Shown here in pieces: positions 391 through 8,463 of a stretch of DNA of 9,341 nt. The position numbers were made by a program, and so were the translations under genes. Under the pieces are notes generated by a model that was given only the letters and a program-made list of their open reading frames with translations, did no database searches and was not told the DNA's origin. How positions within the stretch are numbered: position 1 is the first letter of the stretch; each line of letters opens with the position of its first letter. Source of the stretch: Chloroflexota bacterium (GTDB lineage: Bacteria > Chloroflexota > Anaerolineae > J102); the NCBI GenBank assembly GCA_013152695.1, contig JAADFV010000080.1, positions 1 to 9,341 of the forward strand. The letters are read 5' to 3'.

Positions 391-1029
391 CTATGACTTA
401 CCCTGGCTCAATTTTCGTGCCTGGTATATCCAGCTGGCGTAGTCGGGCTTACGCCAATCGGGTGCCTGGCAAATTGCTTCGAGCTGAGCAGGAGTCTGGT
501 TGGCAAGCTGTGCAAAGGAGCTAATCCCTGCTTCGACGAGTTTCTTGGCAAAAACGGAGCCAACACCTTGGATACGCGTGAGATCATCACTGCTCGGTGC
601 TTGTAAGACCTGTTCCAGCAGTGCTCGTGCTTGTTGTCGCCAGCTTTCGTAATCTAGCTTTTGAAATTCACGCGGTTGCAAAATGCGATCGAGTTCGCTA
701 TCGCTGGCCGCGGCCAGGCTGGCAAAGGAATCGATGCCGGCTTCCTGAAGTTTGCTACTGTAGCCAGGGCCAATACCTTGAATTTGCCTTAAATCATCGC
801 TCTGGGCCTTCGCCGAAGCTGATGCAGAAGGAGCGTCATTTTCTGGGGTGGGAGGTGGCGCTGGGGTTGTAGGAGAGAATGGGGATGTAGCTGGTGTTAC
901 CTCAGCCGGAGCTAAATACTGCCTGAGCTTGACAATGGCCCAAACAATAAGGGTAAGTGCCACAATACGCAGAAAACAGCCCCCACAACTGCGTTTTTGC
1001 TGAGTACTTTCCTTATTTCTATGTTTCAT
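391..1029 (-). CDS. Membrane-anchored protein with two tandem helix-hairpin-helix modules
   Basis: This 212-residue protein has a short basic Cys-containing N-terminus (residues 1-17), one membrane segment (about 18-34, FLRIVALTLIVWAIV) and a Pro/Thr/Ala/Ser-rich linker (about 40-76). Two related 61-residue modules follow at 78-138 and 148-208, offset by exactly 70 residues. Each begins with a helix-hairpin-helix core (QGIGPGYSSKLQEAGI at 84-99, QGVGSVFAKKLVEAGI at 154-169), continues with a SFAxLA helix, and ends with a DYxSWxxQAR helix. The core matches the helix-hairpin-helix/DUF4332-like domains often appended to bacterial proteins; such domains bind DNA non-specifically or mediate protein contacts. 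No enzymatic domain is present. The predicted topology is a short N-terminal tail with both modules on one side of the membrane; which side is not certain. The start is supported by AGAGGAGAG about 8 nt upstream. It lies 30 nt after the phosphohexomutase stop on the same strand, so it is probably the operon's second gene. Its biological role is unknown. Confidence 0.85.
   Translation of the reverse strand: MKHRNKESTQQKRSCGGCFLRIVALTLIVWAIVKLRQYLAPAEVTPATSPFSPTTPAPPPTPENDAPSASASAKAQSDDLRQIQGIGPGYSSKLQEAGIDSFASLAAASDSELDRILQPREFQKLDYESWRQQARALLEQVLQAPSSDDLTRIQGVGSVFAKKLVEAGISSFAQLANQTPAQLEAICQAPDWRKPDYASWIYQARKLSQGKS
406..588 (-). repeat. Second copy of the intragenic helix-hairpin-helix module (residues 148-208)
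   Basis: This segment codes for the second 61-residue module. It aligns without gaps to the module at 616-798: DDLTRIQGVG against DDLRQIQGIG at the start and DYASW against DYESW near the end. The DNA copies are clearly diverged, so this is an old duplication held at protein level. Confidence 0.75.
616..798 (-). repeat. First copy of the intragenic helix-hairpin-helix module (residues 78-138)
   Basis: This segment codes for the first of two gap-free 61-residue modules. The hairpin is GIGPGYSSKLQEAGI and the distal helix contains DYESWRQQAR. A nine-residue linker separates it from the second module. Confidence 0.75.
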
Positions 1030-2727: not shown

Positions 2728-2801
2728 GGGCCAAACTACGTCTCTATAGGTGAATGCTCCCCCCGACCTCTCTCTGTGTCCTCTTCCCCCATACCGTTTC
2801 T

Positions 2802-2807
2802 AAGGAA
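2802..2807 (+). promoter_or_regulatory. Ribosome binding site for the L,D-transpeptidase
   Basis: AAGGAA lies six bases before the ATG at 2814. It selects this start over the in-frame ATG at 2754, whose extra 20 residues would precede and spoil the signal peptide. Confidence 0.75.
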
Positions 2808-2813
2808 AGTGCC

Positions 2814-3644
2814 ATGAAGTATCGAAGTTTATTAATTGCATTATTGGTTTCTTTTGGTTTGATGGTGGGGGCTATGCCTGGTGTGATTAGCGCAGCACCC
2901 CATGAAAGTGGTGGTAAGGTGCATGTGGTGCGCCGCGGTGAAACTCTTTCCGGCATTGCGGCGCGCTATGGCGTATCTGTCAGTGCGGTCGCCCGTGCTA
3001 ACCATATCCAAAACCGTAATCGTATTTATGTGGGAATGCGGTTGTGGATTCCAAACAGTGGCAGCTCAGGGAACACTGGTTCATCGCCTACAAATTCGGG
3101 TATCTATACGGTGCGGCGGGGAGACACGTTGTCGTCTATCGCCCGGCGTTTTGGTGTTAGTGTGGCAGCATTGCGCACGGCCAACAATATCCGTAACGTC
3201 AACCGTATCCGTGTGGGGCAGCGCTTGCAGATTCCGGGTAAACGTAAGGCCAGCAAATCGCCGCCAGCAACAACGCCACCTGTCAGTAGCGGCAAGAAGT
3301 GGATTGAAATCGATCTATCGCGCCAGCGCTTGATTGCCCACCAAGGGAATCAGATTGTATTGAATACGGCTGTGAGCACGGGGCTGGCCCGTACACCCAC
3401 ACCCATTGGACGTTATCGGGTACGGGTCAAGATTCGCCGTCAAACGATGTCGGGCCCAGGCTACCGGCTTCCTAATGTGCAGTGGGTAATGTATTTTGTG
3501 GGTGCCTATGCCATCCATGGTGCCTACTGGCACAATAATTTTGGGCATCCCATGAGCCATGGCTGTGTGAATATGCGTAACGCCGATGCACGACTGCTTT
3601 ACAAATGGGCGTCAAGAGGAACAACCGTGATCGTCCACCGCTAG
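2814..3644 (+). CDS. Secreted L,D-transpeptidase (YkuD domain) with two LysM domains
   Basis: This 276-residue cell-wall enzyme is exported. Residues 1-28 form a signal peptide (basic MKYR, a hydrophobic core, cleavage likely around ISAAP). LysM1 spans about 36-80 and LysM2 about 97-141; both have the RRGxTLSxIAxRxGVSV pattern and should bind peptidoglycan N-acetylglucosamine. A Lys/Ser/Pro linker (142-160) leads to the YkuD catalytic domain at 162-275. The active-site motif is complete: H235 in AIHG, then SHGCVN at 248-253 with H249, G250 and catalytic C251. The family forms 3-3 peptide cross-links or attaches proteins to peptidoglycan; which applies here is not visible. No membrane anchor other than the signal is present. 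The ATG was chosen for its AAGGAA site and because the signal peptide begins directly there. It is divergent from the mutase operon and ends one base from the stop of the opposing epimerase gene. Confidence 0.95.
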
Positions 3645-3645
3645 A

Positions 3646-4611
3646 TCAGGCAATAGCGCTCAAAGTACCTTGGTTATCGAGAATAGCCTGAAAACGCGGG
3701 TCTGCTTGCACGGTGCGCTGGAGTCCTTCTTGTAGCGACACTTTCGGTTCGTAGTCCAACAAGGACTGAGCTTTTTCGATATCGGCCACCAGCCGGGCAA
3801 CGCCGCCGCTGTGCTCCTGATTGTGGAGCACATGAGCCGATCGTTTCGTTGCCGTCTCGATGTGCTCAATCAACTGATTTACACTCGTCTCCACGCCCGA
3901 ACCGATATTGATGATCTGTCGATCAATCTCGTGGCGCTCTCCCGCTTGAATCAAAGCATCGACGACATCATCGATATAAACATAGTCGCGAGTTTGTTCA
4001 CCGTTGTCATGAACAACGACTGTGCCCCCCAGTAAAGTTTCCTGAATCATTTTGGGGACAACAGGGGGATAGGCCGGGGGCAGGGCTTGTCCTGGCCCAT
4101 AGGCATTGAAAACACGTAGGGCTACTGTTTCAATGCCATAATGGACACCTAGGGTAAACATGTAATGCTCGGCAGCAAATTTACTCACGGCGTAGGGCGT
4201 GAGAAGCTCGGGAACAACGGTTTCATCGACGGGCTGGCGTTTTTGATCACCATAAATGGTGCCGGAGGAGACCAAGACCACTCGCTGTACGCCTACAGCA
4301 CGCATCGCCTCCATGAGACATACGGTTCCCCCCACGTTGATGTCGTTATACTCGCGGGGGTAGAGAACAGATTGGGGGAGAGAGACTTTGGCTGCGAGAT
4401 GATAAACACAATCGATATCATGAAGCAAGGTCCACAATTTAGGTTGATCGCGCACATCGCCACGAGTAAACAGGACCTTACTGTCCAACAAGTTAGGGTC
4501 GCCAGCACTTAGATCATCGATAACACGGACATGGTGCCCATCGGCAACCAGCCGGTTCGCGAGGTGGTGCCCAATAAAACCTGCACCGCCCGTAATAAGG
4601 TATCTTTTCAT
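3646..4611 (-). CDS. NAD-dependent epimerase/dehydratase (extended SDR, UDP-glucose 4-epimerase-like)
   Basis: This 321-residue cytoplasmic nucleotide-sugar enzyme has an N-terminal Rossmann fold with TGGAGFIG (7-14; G8, G11, G14) for NAD binding and D32-D33 at the end of strand 2, which favours NAD over NADP. HLAA at 71-74, the SSG triad region at 115-117 and YAVSK at 140-144 (catalytic Y140, K144) complete the extended short-chain dehydrogenase active site. RVFNAYGPGQ (166-175) and QTRDYVYIDDVVDA (206-219) are typical substrate-domain signatures of GalE-like epimerases and related nucleotide-sugar dehydratases. Substrate (UDP-Glc, UDP-GlcNAc or another) cannot be fixed from sequence, so no symbol is given. 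There is no clear Shine-Dalgarno; the leader is pyrimidine-rich. A strong promoter-like element lies about 60 nt upstream. It appears to be a single-gene unit, convergent with the L,D-transpeptidase and divergent from the large gene at 4722. Confidence 0.93.
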   Translation of the reverse strand: MKRYLITGGAGFIGHHLANRLVADGHHVRVIDDLSAGDPNLLDSKVLFTRGDVRDQPKLWTLLHDIDCVYHLAAKVSLPQSVLYPREYNDINVGGTVCLMEAMRAVGVQRVVLVSSGTIYGDQKRQPVDETVVPELLTPYAVSKFAAEHYMFTLGVHYGIETVALRVFNAYGPGQALPPAYPPVVPKMIQETLLGGTVVVHDNGEQTRDYVYIDDVVDALIQAGERHEIDRQIINIGSGVETSVNQLIEHIETATKRSAHVLHNQEHSGGVARLVADIEKAQSLLDYEPKVSLQEGLQRTVQADPRFQAILDNQGTLSAIA

Positions 4612-4667
4612 AAATATGAGGGATTTTTATAGAACCAAGAGAATCAGGGGAAGGGAAAAGGCAATTT

Positions 4668-4694
4668 ATTATAGCATAGAGGAGTGCTTGTCAA
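4668..4694 (-). promoter_or_regulatory. Sigma-70-type promoter for the epimerase gene
   Basis: On the minus strand, TTGACA (4694-4689, full -35 match) is followed after 15 nt by TATAAT (4673-4668, full -10 match), itself preceded by TGC, giving an extended -10 (TGCTATAAT). The spacer is two bases shorter than the usual 17. A start near 4661 would give a leader of about 50 nt. The element ends 27 nt before the divergent gene's start at 4722. Confidence 0.65.
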
Positions 4695-4721
4695 CAGATT
4701 GAGAGCATGCTAGGATTGGGT

Positions 4722-6968
4722 ATGAGCACAGGGGCAGTTTTATCCGCCTTGAGACCTTCGTGGCCTCCAGTTCCGGCGCTGTCGATGTCTGAGGTGGTCG
4801 GCGCTGGTTTTACTGCGCCTGCTGTTGCCGACGGCCTTGCCCAGGCACCGGCGGGCGTGCTTGCCATGGCTCTGATGCCCAATGAGAGCTTGCTTAGCAA
4901 CAACACTCGCCCTGTCTTTGCTTTGGATGCCGATCCCTTGCGCCTGTTGGCTCTGGTCGTGCAAATGAACGGGCCTCCTCCCGAAGTGGTCAGCCGTGTC
5001 TTTACCCGCCTGTTCGACACACCCTACCGGGGACGACCCTGGGGCCGAGTAATCGAAAGTCTGTATCATGTCACCTGCCCTGCGTGTTGGCGTCAAACGA
5101 GAGCTGAATACTTTCGCTGGCGAGGTTTACCGCCCGCCTTGCAGAGTCGCTTTGTCCACTGCGAGCACTGCGGCTATAGTGGAGAAGCCGCTGCCGAAGA
5201 CGAGGAACGGGCTTTTGCTGCAGAAATCATGCCCAGTCCCGCTCAGGTTTGGGAAATGACGGGACGGGTTCTACCGCCGGAACATGGGCTCAGAACCAAA
5301 GTAGAACATGCTCACCAGTTTTATACAACCCGCAATCTCTGGGTGCTCTGGGAAACCCTACGGATTCTGGCAGAACTCGAGCTCTCTGCACCGGAACGAC
5401 GGGCCTTACAATGGATTGTGGCCCGGGCATTGTGGTGGGGCAGCAATCTCGCGCAACAACCCGCCTTGTTGTGGCAGCCCCATCTTCGACGACCAAGGCA
5501 GTTTCTCGAACCCAATATGCACATCGTCTTTGAGAAGGCTTTACAAGAGGTGCGGGACTGTTCTGGCCGTCTGCCACGCACGCAGGTAACCCAGGTTGCG
5601 CCTTTGTTGGAAGGAGAAAAGGGACGGATTCTTCTCACTCAGCGCTGGCCGATCTCCCTAAAAACAGGACCTTCCGCCCGACCCCTTGCCCTCGTCCTCC
5701 TTTCTGTACCTCCTCCCACCCCATTGTACTGGCTCTTGCGCTTCGTGTGGAGTGGCTGGCTGTTCGGTCAACGGGCTGCCCGGCCCCTGCTCCCCCTGTT
5801 AGAACTACGCCAAACTACCACGGCCGCCCTGCCCGAAGGTTTTGAGGAAATGGTGGCCTGGCTGGAAGATGCTCTGCACGAAGAGGGTGTCCTGGTGGTA
5901 CAGTGGCGCTGGCGAGGAGTACCCACGCAAACGGCTGCGCTTTTAGCAGCGCTACCCCCCGTTAGTGCGCCACCTCTGGTTGCCCGTGTGGATGAGCACG
6001 AATGGTTGGGCATGGTGAGCTGCCGGCCGCAGCCTTCCGCCGCTGAGCAGGTTATTTCTGAAAACAGACTTGTTGTGGGAGCAGAGGCTATGCGGCAGAC
6101 CCTTAGGGAACGAGGAGAGCCGCTGTTGTATCCGCCTTTGCAGGCGGCTGTCTTGGCTGCCTGGCAATCACACCGTCTATTGGAGGCTGATGATCTTTCT
6201 CTACTCCAACGTTTGTTCGATCCCCAGACTCCCCCCCAGGGGATAACGGCAATCAACAACGCCGGCGAACCAGCTACCAGCGAAAAGGATGTGTGGTGGT
6301 GGCTCGAAATACCTCCCGATCCCTGGCAGCCTGCTTCCGACTCGGCCGAAAGAAAGCTGGTAGAACTCTTGGCAGAACAGCCCCCCAACAAGCAAACCCT
6401 TTTACAAACTTTGACGCAAGCGCTTTCGCCTGCGGCCATTCCCGACCGGCCCTGGTTCGAGGCCTTGCTGAATTCCTACGCAGTCAGTGAGGATGGCAGG
6501 ATCCACTTGCGAAAAAAAGATGAACCTGCAGCCCGGCATGAGGAAATCATGGCCTTTGCAGAAATGTTGATGGAAAGGGGACGCGATTTTGGCTTTGATA
6601 CCGTCCATTGGTGGGAAGAGAAAACGCGCTTGTTGGTTGAATGGTATCGAGAAAAACAACGCCGTCTCAGCTTCCTTCTCTCTGCCAACACCAATCTCAC
6701 TCCCCGTTTGTGGCTTAGTCGCACCCCTCTGCCCCCTGTGCAGCGCTACCTTGTCTTGCCCGGAGGACGGGCGGGCCTGGTGCGCTGGCGCATAGAACAT
6801 CAACCCTTATGGGCCACCATTGCTTCCGCCCAGGGCTGGTCATTTGTCAAATTCAGACAATTGCGTACCAGCTTATCTCAACCCCCTTCCGATCTCGAAC
6901 TTTGGTTGAACACATTGCAATTTGACCCTCTCTTCTCTGAACCCGGAGAACAATTACAACTCTGGTAA
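4722..6968 (+). CDS. Large zinc-ribbon protein with a degenerate DNA-methyltransferase-like fold; function unknown
   Basis: Not matched with certainty. Residue numbers count from the longer start at 4707 (753 aa). The order resembles Zn-ribbon-containing adenine-specific DNA methylases: a Rossmann-like strand FALDADPLRLLALV (71-84), then a zinc ribbon (CPAC at 124-127 and CEHC at 152-155), a helical middle, and PLYWLLRFVWSGWLFG (339-354) after VPPP (334-337). In active enzymes the first strand follows a glycine-rich SAM loop (DPFxGSGT) and the second region carries D/N-PP-Y/W; here these places read AMALMPNE (53-60) and SVPPP (333-337). It is therefore probably catalytically inactive. The C-terminus (RYLVLPGGRAGL at 680-691, WSFVKFRQLR at 711-720) resembles the end of related proteins I recall from Chloroflexota. 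ATG 4722 has AGGA six bases upstream; ATG 4707 has no well-spaced site. The next gene starts 31 nt downstream, so they may be co-transcribed. No membrane segments or signal peptide are seen. Confidence 0.62.
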   Translation: MSTGAVLSALRPSWPPVPALSMSEVVGAGFTAPAVADGLAQAPAGVLAMALMPNESLLSNNTRPVFALDADPLRLLALVVQMNGPPPEVVSRVFTRLFDTPYRGRPWGRVIESLYHVTCPACWRQTRAEYFRWRGLPPALQSRFVHCEHCGYSGEAAAEDEERAFAAEIMPSPAQVWEMTGRVLPPEHGLRTKVEHAHQFYTTRNLWVLWETLRILAELELSAPERRALQWIVARALWWGSNLAQQPALLWQPHLRRPRQFLEPNMHIVFEKALQEVRDCSGRLPRTQVTQVAPLLEGEKGRILLTQRWPISLKTGPSARPLALVLLSVPPPTPLYWLLRFVWSGWLFGQRAARPLLPLLELRQTTTAALPEGFEEMVAWLEDALHEEGVLVVQWRWRGVPTQTAALLAALPPVSAPPLVARVDEHEWLGMVSCRPQPSAAEQVISENRLVVGAEAMRQTLRERGEPLLYPPLQAAVLAAWQSHRLLEADDLSLLQRLFDPQTPPQGITAINNAGEPATSEKDVWWWLEIPPDPWQPASDSAERKLVELLAEQPPNKQTLLQTLTQALSPAAIPDRPWFEALLNSYAVSEDGRIHLRKKDEPAARHEEIMAFAEMLMERGRDFGFDTVHWWEEKTRLLVEWYREKQRRLSFLLSANTNLTPRLWLSRTPLPPVQRYLVLPGGRAGLVRWRIEHQPLWATIASAQGWSFVKFRQLRTSLSQPPSDLELWLNTLQFDPLFSEPGEQLQLW

Positions 6969-6999: not shown

Positions 7000-7967
7000 A
7001 TGCGAACCGACCTTCCCACCCTTTCTCTTACCCAACTTCCAACCCCGCTTCACCCCCTCCCACGCTTCTCTGCCTGGCTAAAAGCTGATGTCGAAGTTTG
7101 GATCAAACGAGATGATCTGACAGGCCTCGCTCTAGGCGGAAACAAGCTACGAAAGCTCAACTATCTGGTTGCAGATGCCTTAGCTCAAGGTGCTACGGAT
7201 TTGATTACGACCGGTGCTGCCCAGAGTAACCACTGCCGTCAGACCGCGGCCGCGGCCAGCAGATCAGGCCTGGGCTGCCATCTCGTCTTGCGAGGAAATC
7301 CTGAGGATCGACCGGGCGGCAATTTGCTTTTGGATCGGCTATTCGGTGCCCAGTTGCATTGGGCCGGAGTTCCCGATACCGCTGAGGCTATGCGCCAGCT
7401 GGAAATGAAGCTCAAAGCAGAAGGGCGTCAACCCTACGTGATTCCGCTTGGCGGTTCTACAGCTCTTGGTGCCGCCGGTTATGCTGCGGCCTGGCTGGAA
7501 ATGGCCCAGCAAGCGGACGAAAAAGGGACTACATTTACGGCCGTCGTCTTTGCCACCAGTTCGGGAGGCACACAGGCGGGATTGAGTGTGGGTGCGGGAG
7601 AGACTGGCTGGCCGGGCGAGATTCACGGTATTTCGGTAGATCATAAGGTGCCACACTTAAGCCAGGTCACGGCCGCCCTCACCGAGGCCGCTGCCGACTT
7701 GCTGGAAATCTCTACACCGCACCCCGTCATTCTCCATGATCAGTATACGGGGGGTGGCTATGGGGTCGTGGGAGATCGGGAACGAGAGGCAATCAAAGCC
7801 ATGGCTCGGCAGGAGGGCATCCTCGTTGACCCGGTGTACACCGGCCGCGCTCTGGCAGGATTGATCGATCTGGCACGCCGGGGAGTTTTGCATGGTCGGT
7901 GTTCTGGCACACGGGTGGCACCCCCGCACTTTTTGCTTATGAAAAGGAGTTGGAATTGGCCTCCTAA
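7000..7967 (+). pseudogene. PLP-dependent D-cysteine desulfhydrase/ACC deaminase family protein, frameshifted near the 3' end
   Basis: Family enzymes use pyridoxal phosphate to break D-cysteine to pyruvate, H2S and ammonia, or ACC to 2-oxobutyrate and ammonia. Visible residues are the PLP lysine K49 in GGNKLRK, S76-N77-H78 (the usual nucleophile region QSNH), the phosphate loop TSSGGTQAG (186-194), Y254, and Y280 in DPVYTGRA. The frame is intact to about residue 299 (HG), then goes wrong. As read it gives no family motif and runs to a stop at 8070 (356 aa), antisense to the Nudix gene. One base inserted near 7897-7898 restores VFWHTGGTPALFAYEKELE and a TAA at 7965-7967, giving the family's usual length of about 322 aa. 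T281 (not Glu) after Y280 and HTGG (not HLGG) in the restored frame favour D-cysteine desulfhydrase over ACC deaminase. A sequencing or assembly error is as likely as a genuine mutation. GGAGG five bases upstream sets the start. Confidence 0.85.
7894..7901 (+). other. Frameshift site in the desulfhydrase gene (one base apparently missing)
   Basis: Upstream codons to CAT GGT (7891-7896) are in family register. From GTG at 7899-7901 the register that encodes VFWHTGG is shifted, leaving the two bases CG (7897-7898) as an incomplete codon. A single added base here restores the whole C-terminus. Confidence 0.8.
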
Positions 7968-7974
7968 GGACTTT

Positions 7975-8463
7975 TTAAAGACTCTCTTTCTTCACTCCCC
8001 AGCGCCCATAGCCGGTACGGCCCTCCTTCCAATCGGCCAGGGCCTGGGGAAGCCCCGGATCGAGAGGTGAGGGTAGGTTCTCAAGAGAAAACCAGCCAGC
8101 TTCGGCGATCTCGCCTTGTTGAATCTGCAAGCTGCCGCCCAGACGACGACAGGCGAACACAAAGATATGATCGCGCTTATAGGCACCTGTCCAATAATAC
8201 ACCCCCACCAATCGCGTGATCTCAACCTCGAAACCGGTCTCCTCCCGCATTTCCCGCAGTAAAGCCTCAGCCGCTGTCTCATCACCGCTACCGCCGCCGC
8301 CAGGCAGATACCAACGGCGGCTACCATAAGTATGGCGCACCAACAAAATCCGGCCAGCCTCGTCACACAAAATGCCTCGCACGCCAATCGTGCGAGGCCG
8401 CAGCAGCCACCACACCACCAGCATCCCTTTGAGCGCCCAATTTCGCCAGTTGAGCCGTTTCAT
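7975..8463 (-). CDS. Nudix hydrolase
   Basis: This 162-residue protein has a complete Nudix box at 56-78 (G-x5-E-x7-REMREETGF), with R70, E71, E74 and E75 expected to bind the catalytic metal, and the preceding WYLPGGG loop. Nudix enzymes hydrolyse a nucleoside diphosphate linked to another moiety; the substrate is not predictable here. Residues 10-22 are a hydrophobic Trp-rich helix before the domain, a feature of one Nudix subgroup, perhaps a packing helix and not a transmembrane segment. The ATG at 8463-8461 overlaps the psuG TGA (8462-8460) as ATGA, which strongly supports this start and translational coupling. The open frame continues upstream to 8736 inside psuG, but that part is just out-of-frame psuG. 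The gene ends 7 nt from the corrected end of the opposing desulfhydrase gene. Confidence 0.92.
   Translation of the reverse strand: MKRLNWRNWALKGMLVVWWLLRPRTIGVRGILCDEAGRILLVRHTYGSRRWYLPGGGGSGDETAAEALLREMREETGFEVEITRLVGVYYWTGAYKRDHIFVFACRRLGGSLQIQQGEIAEAGWFSLENLPSPLDPGLPQALADWKEGRTGYGRWGVKKESL
8460..8463 (-). other. ATGA stop-start overlap coupling psuG and the Nudix gene
   Basis: The minus strand reads ATGA here: ATG starts the Nudix gene and TGA ends psuG. No strong independent ribosome binding site precedes the ATG, consistent with re-initiation by terminating ribosomes. Confidence 0.85.

Follow-up and report, generated by a model that had tools for sequence, protein, structure and literature searches.

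The zinc-ribbon adenine/cytosine DNA methyltransferases of the PF01555 type, which we take to be COG1743-like, contain in order motif X-I, a zinc ribbon, an (F/Y)TxRN helix, an ExN segment, the motif IV region, and an aromatic helix. A methyltransferase fold may also be kept without catalysis, as in the METTL14-type pseudo-methyltransferases, where it serves nucleic-acid binding or scaffolding; METTL14 itself supports METTL3. The order of elements seen in the PF01555-type enzymes (e.g. those designated L058-L066 here) was shared by the protein predicted for a gene at nt 4722–6968 in contig JAADFV010000080.1 of a Chloroflexota bacterium, a stretch of 9,341 nt referred to below as the window. 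This protein is probably a pseudo-methyltransferase, that is, a former zinc-ribbon DNA methyltransferase that has lost methyl transfer and is kept as a single chromosomal copy for nucleic-acid binding. An earlier note, made from the sequence without database searches, had proposed a repurposed, non-methylating role, which is now supported by family-wide motif loss, an invariant ribbon, and purifying selection in the relatives.

The open frame (nt 4707–6968, forward strand) had 753 codons and in-frame ATGs at 4707, 4722, and 4785, in keeping with the well-preserved frame of about 750 codons noted earlier, and the homologues were nearly full-length. ATG 4722 was favoured by about 26 additional N-terminal residues in several homologues, while the public clustered protein P0001 starts at ATG 4785; residues are numbered here with Met 4785 as 1. 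The features of the gene were as follows.

4722–6968, forward strand: putative pseudo-methyltransferase gene (ATG 4722 favoured, alternatives 4707 and 4785; stop codon 6966–6968).
4785–6032, forward strand: methyltransferase-fold region, residues 1–416, with inserted zinc ribbon and helical module.
4851–4895, forward strand: degenerate motif I (S-adenosylmethionine, SAM, loop), AMALMPNE replacing DPFxGxGxT in the alignments.
4914–4937, forward strand: motif II strand FALDADP.
5076–5171, forward strand: zinc ribbon CPAC/CEHC, C98/C101 and C126/C129.
5319–5339, forward strand: FYTTRNL motif with R183.
5508–5516, forward strand: E242 and N244.
5688–5723, forward strand: degenerate motif IV, VLLSVPPPT replacing (T/L)DPPY in the alignment.
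6066–6509, forward strand: residues 428–575, helices and beta hairpins, winged-helix-like as predicted from the secondary structure of the model.
6525–6878, forward strand: residues 581–698, alpha-beta-beta-beta-alpha-beta-alpha, restriction-endonuclease-like as predicted from the model secondary structure and Foldseek.
6633–6686, forward strand: position at which other clades have the D...ExE-type motif; LVEW...FLLSANT in the window, with the aligned acidic residues lost.

The zinc-ribbon DNA methylase architecture assigned in the earlier note held up on alignment with active methylases, which matched the motif order, the four cysteines (C98, C101, C126, and C129 of CPAC/CEHC), and the aromatic helix YWLLRFVWSGWLFG, located downstream of SVPPP and the counterpart of the helix following DPPY. 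The substitutions that it had pointed out were likewise recovered: AMALMPNE, together with a short deletion, replaced the LDPFC(Q)G... of most relatives, leaving no FxGxG SAM loop, and SVPPP stood against the (T/L)DPPY of active relatives, without the (D/N/S/T)PP(Y/F/W) pattern of motif IV. FALDADP, described there as a Rossmann strand, was indeed present and aligned as the motif II strand with its acid retained (D48), not as the SAM loop. A structure model built from 13 sequences (an earlier six-sequence model, with a predicted local distance difference test score of 54.7, was poor and its Foldseek search unusable) possessed the SAM-methyltransferase Rossmann fold, so a fold unrelated to Rossmann methyltransferases, raised earlier as the result that would count against this architecture, was not what was found. 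Strand 1 was followed in the model by just a short helix (H34-38). The best structural matches were the tRNA m2G methyltransferases Trm11 and TrmN, with VIA-align rows mostly over residues 1–417. The window protein had no PF01555 match at an expectation value (E) of 0.1, and 17 of 48 aligned members matched that model (best E, 6.1e-07). A frameshift masking the true motif I was considered and rejected: the other two forward frames (nt 4590–5400) contained stops and, by eye, no motif I, and the degenerate region is shared in frame by the homologues.

Motif counts were made on 106 complete members from 120 unique matches. The 14 left out were ten related zinc-ribbon methylases that had surfaced as weaker matches and were used as the outgroup (L055, L058-L066), two very divergent sequences (L056, L057), and two truncated ones (L011, L030); L001-L004 were dropped as the same genes as L005-L008, and L067 (195 residues) was under the length limit. 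GxG at motif I was observed in 5 of the 106 members, all of one clade (DPWAGTGWT or DPWSGTGWT), and motif IV was in place in a single member (L034, TPPY); none had both. In the outgroup, GxG was present in 10/10 and strict motif IV in 9/10, the tenth (L055) having EPPF. In their strict form, intact motifs at other positions, which the earlier note had named as a result that would speak against it, were about as frequent as in shuffled sequences: motif IV occurred anywhere in the protein in 6 members (5.9 in shuffled sequences) and strict motif I in 12 (10.55 shuffled), never together. A looser motif I was seen in 19 members (5.9 shuffled), one of which (L082) also had a string matching motif IV at an unrelated position. 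Judged from these sequences, the SAM-loop glycines and the catalytic D/N-PP-Y/F motif are lost family-wide.

The four cysteines, by contrast, persisted as the earlier note had anticipated, being invariant in 48/48 aligned and 106/106 members, and the zinc-ribbon columns of the ten outgroup methylases held Cys in 39 of 40 cells. R183 was invariant in all 106 members and in 10/10 outgroup methylases, E242 and N244 were present in 106 and 103 members (each in 9/10 of the outgroup), and W325 was retained in 94. When 760 alignment columns were ranked by entropy, uncorrected for kinship, Cys, R183, and E242 ranked at percentile 0 and N244 at 1.7, whereas both glycines and the T of motif I, the motif II acid, and the D and Y/F of motif IV fell at the 34th to 78th percentile. 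Between these stood the D, P, and F of motif I (7th to 14th) and the first P of motif IV (27th). Retention followed the same lines: D, P, and F of motif I in 89, 76, and 78 of the 106, first G, second G, and T in 8, 21, and 8, the motif II D in 15, and the motif IV D in 9, with the motif IV prolines kept in 54 (the first, an intermediate value) and 97 (the second). Since the motif I D, P, and F are fairly conserved, some pocket or structural need remains. Varying SAM and catalytic positions beside a ribbon and three residues that are common to active methylases and near-invariant in 106 members make an unusually clean contrast.

Several relatives deserve separate mention. The clade of L050, L052, L123, L132, and L134, with a GTG SAM loop and no motif IV, might bind SAM without catalysis, to judge from its motifs, and might supply good comparison proteins. 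L056, L057, and L067, all highly divergent and from genomes of 1.1–1.2 Mb, had the zinc-ribbon Cys and nearly no methylase motifs. L055, a zinc-ribbon methylase with DPFGGNGTT and EPPF, was apparently fused in frame to a C-terminal part resembling ferredoxin reductase or electron-transfer proteins, as seen by eye.

Four other proteins shared 42% to 44% identity with the window protein across 89% to 99% of its length, and four genome loci, in part the same genes, shared 42% to 46%. The four loci with an assigned name were all from Chloroflexota, one being Caldilineae. In a sample of 298 genomes from the class to which one relative belongs, a narrow profile (E ≤ 0.001, no more than three candidates scored in each) matched 106, a figure equal to the number of complete members by coincidence. 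In a sample of 400 genomes from the phylum, a wide profile (E ≤ 1e-10, no more than two candidates scored in each) matched 126; in 87 of these (85 strong and two very divergent) the match spanned 500 or more of the 775 profile positions, and the others were partial copies or parts of other methylase-like proteins. With exhaustive scoring, the narrow profile gave one match in each of four genomes and the wide profile exactly one full-length match in 12/12 related genomes, the next best scoring at most 46 bits (all candidates were scored in 11 genomes and 83 of 84 in one; two genomes were shared with the narrow set). Chance is excluded because of these proteins, loci, and single full-length copies. 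A single Chloroflexota genome served as the centre of the genome searches, and the collection was scanned with two peptide patterns from the window's own subfamily. Searches of a 5.8-billion protein set, bounded by shared words and the candidates scored, returned 5, 5, and 8 proteins including the window's own, and the window protein as query had no match in plasmid records, phage records, or viral contigs.

Ratios of nonsynonymous to synonymous substitution rates (dN/dS) were computed for 19 pairs. Those between relatives at dS below 1, 12 in all, gave 0.107–0.308, and three at dS of 1.35–2.12 gave 0.076–0.102. L118/L145, L118/L119, and window/L008 were saturated and window/L006 gave 0.177 at dS 2.93; the window pairs, being saturated or nearly so, were not used for the estimate. 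One internal stop was found among the 85 strongest long rows of the wide-profile matches. Because dN/dS was low and the long frames were, with that exception, free of stops, pseudogene decay is excluded for the family; for the window protein itself, the same conclusion would rest on its conservation with relatives.

In the C-terminal part, the model contained a helix (581–601), three strands (605–612, 615–622, and 625–633), a helix (639–644), a strand (652–658), and a helix (660–672), an order that we take to be that of the PD-(D/E)xK endonuclease core. Foldseek with the whole model gave EcoT38I endonuclease as the top match (prob 0.99, E 0.021), without stating which range was aligned, and Cap4, which presumably has an endonuclease-like part, as rank 12; the C-terminal domain alone yielded nothing meaningful against sequences of solved structures and Pfam. 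A PD-(D/E)xK-type domain is therefore a likely assignment as far as the model goes. One group of relatives had a conserved D aligned to strand 2 and FEVEWTAML to strand 3, where the window had L and FLLSANTNL, with no acidic residue at the sites aligned to the catalytic D...(E/D)xK. The motif D...[E/Q/D]x[E/D] was present in 28/106 members, 21 of them with the exact ExE. A SnoaL_2 match over the winged-helix/C-terminal part (E 0.0028–0.0032) was below the cut-off and taken as chance, as were Lar, MqsA, and other weak Pfam matches.

The FastTree phylogeny, for which the outgroup served as root and in which long branches and odd composition were flagged, had two sides, one of 29 rows (support 86) and one of 77 rows (support 95). 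All 28 members with the endonuclease-type motif fell on the 29-row side, where L043 belonged to the group and failed the motif rule; the window protein lay on the 77-row side, in a clade of seven rows whose SAM loop was the most altered. The motif counts and the tree therefore indicate that the methylase site is degenerate throughout the family as sampled and that the larger side lacks the endonuclease-type site, which suggests an order for the two losses.

On the proposed mechanism, a winged-helix-like and endonuclease-like C-terminal part would have been attached to a former zinc-ribbon methylase. The retained ribbon, (F/Y)TxRN helix, and ExN segment probably face nucleic acid in active relatives, and here too they would read or hold DNA (possibly RNA), with the winged-helix-like segments contributing affinity. 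As the window lineage would retain no chemistry, its protein would act as a bound platform or regulator. Several points weigh against this. The methyltransferase fold is well kept, the D/P/F of motif I and the prolines of motif IV are partly retained, and a ligand pocket may partly survive; five members retain GxG; the members were found via profiles of degenerate members, biasing towards degenerate sequences; the gene is far from universal, with long matches in 87/400 sampled phylum genomes; Foldseek with the whole model gave no match at E 0.001; and DNA binding is argued by analogy, from common ancestry with DNA methylases.

Gene neighbours were compared at 106 loci, overlapping but not identical to the 106 members and often with flanks of at most 1.5 kb; one genome was counted twice (L002, L005). 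The partners in the window were the following.

2754–3644, forward strand: LysM and YkuD L,D-transpeptidase (Pfam), within 1.6 kb of the gene in 7/106 loci.
3646–4611, reverse strand: nicotinamide adenine dinucleotide-dependent epimerase (PF01370), on the opposite strand within 1.5 kb in 8/106 loci.
7000–8070, forward strand: D-cysteine desulfhydrase-type pyridoxal phosphate enzyme (PF00291), 31 bases downstream and adjoining on the same strand in 8/106 loci.

Conserved neighbours, which the earlier note had advised looking for, do exist, the window arrangement (LysM-YkuD, opposite-strand epimerase, gene, D-cysteine desulfhydrase) recurring at loci that include L093 and L101 from another clade. 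The NCBIfam models of the D-cysteine desulfhydrase family matched the 7000–8070 product below their cut-offs. Its frame ended in an unrelated tail, and the C-terminal motif of its relatives, FWHTGGTPALFAYE, lay in another frame near nt 7890–7967, suggesting a frameshift, natural or from sequencing. A helix-hairpin-helix protein (HHH_5, DUF4332; nt 391–1029, reverse strand) with an N-terminal hydrophobic stretch by eye was encoded beside a phosphoglucomutase gene.

On the side of the tree with the endonuclease-type motif, a same-strand tetratricopeptide repeat (TPR) protein was adjacent or near in 24 loci (within 200 bases in 12), a DUF885 protein was immediately downstream in 10, and DNA polymerase X with a PHP domain was encoded upstream on the same strand, at 1.4–6.1 kb, in 16 (e.g. 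L140:3864-5720), a possible DNA-repair context. The C-terminal half of the TPR protein (PF07719; L051:2537-3487 and 23 other loci) had no Pfam match at 0.001 and, by eye, may resemble a HIRAN-like domain. In another clade, a CAP-domain protein followed within 200 bases in 12 loci, and genes for histidine kinases or response regulators were often no more than several kb away. Gene order that is clade-specific and recurrent within clades is as expected of a resident chromosomal gene. As a tentative and still doubtful history, a largely vertical Chloroflexota family may have arisen from a methylase-winged helix-endonuclease chain whose active sites were lost serially, that of the methylase no later than the base of the family as sampled and the endonuclease-like one in the window's larger branch, leaving a sequence-reading chromosomal protein in housekeeping (DNA repair or regulation); DNA cleavage may persist in the motif-keeping branch, where a TPR partner and a DNA polymerase X gene are found nearby.

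The partner could also be RNA or a protein. That the protein binds RNA or protein rather than DNA, e.g. as a METTL14-like scaffold for another enzyme, seems rather unlikely overall; zinc ribbons can bind RNA besides DNA, and Trm11 and TrmN as top structural matches point the same way, as does the TPR protein of the 24 loci.

A defence role is less likely because of copy number, neighbours, and selection. The protein would here be an anti-phage sensor or restriction-modification leftover, in which a dead methylase fused to a dead or altered endonuclease detects foreign DNA and then signals its presence or sequesters it. The methylase fold and the endonuclease-like domain do share one chain, and in PMC12839542, a 2026 paper, inactive restriction endonuclease and other domains are proposed as retained sensors in BREX-type systems. 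Similarity to PADLOC type II methyltransferase and PglXI models (21/28 members for the best model at E ≤ 0.1, best 1.7e-11; the window protein with PglXI only, E 0.047) is expected for any DNA methylase relative. The six window neighbour open reading frames scanned with Pfam were housekeeping, and no restriction or defence gene was among the ten commonest named neighbour families, the neighbours not having been scanned with PADLOC. A single copy in old local order, under purifying selection and with no phage or plasmid match, is unlike mobile defence genes, and we regard this explanation as unlikely. Housekeeping is favoured over defence on account of the housekeeping neighbours identified and the age of the local gene order.

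That the protein is still an active methyltransferase, using an unusual SAM site, is very improbable: the fold is intact and most members retain the motif I D, P, and F, but the loop glycines, the motif II acid, and the D and Y/F of motif IV are as variable as average positions, and the window clade has in addition lost residues from the loop, with just the short helix after strand 1 in the model. A decaying pseudogene family, which the active-site losses might suggest, is already contradicted by full-length frames, dN/dS well below 1, and invariant Cys/R/E, and can be dismissed.

For the pseudo-methyltransferase favoured here, no NCBIfam model and no Pfam model matched the window protein above cut-off in the libraries searched; at E 0.001, 2/48 members matched NCBIfam, with a DNA methyltransferase model. 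No description of the family was recognised in the open-licence full-text literature, as judged by title and abstract opening. We regard it as a family-wide pseudoenzyme branch of the zinc-ribbon DNA methylases, so far without a name in these libraries. Dead enzymes retained by selection reveal functions of a fold that are independent of chemistry, and the active related methylases can be used as controls for direct comparison of binding, zinc dependence, and SAM affinity.

Compared with described systems, the inactive-domain sensors proposed for BREX (PMC12839542) are a useful parallel from a different family. RsrI and 2zie, beta-class methyltransferases with solved structures, shared a profile match over motif X-I; the matched part is near the C-terminal end of RsrI and N-terminal here, so the motif order differs, and the loop is degenerate. 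The predicted C-terminal strand and helix order resembled that of EcoT38I and other restriction endonucleases of the PD-(D/E)xK fold, with the D...ExE-type motif aligned to strands 2-3 in 28/106 members. In contrast to those enzymes, there was no meaningful sequence match, the motif was absent in the window lineage, and ExE, for which BamHI is a precedent, replaced ExK. Unlike METTL14-type proteins, this is a separate, bacterial family with a zinc ribbon and an endonuclease-like domain in one chain. Closest were the PF01555-type methylases, with which the four Cys, R183, E242, N244, and W325 were largely common; they differed in having GxG together with DPPY/F, a combination found in 0/106 members, and additional Cys (alignment columns 191, 194, and 326) absent in the family, to which a winged-helix-like and endonuclease-like C-terminal part appears to have been added.
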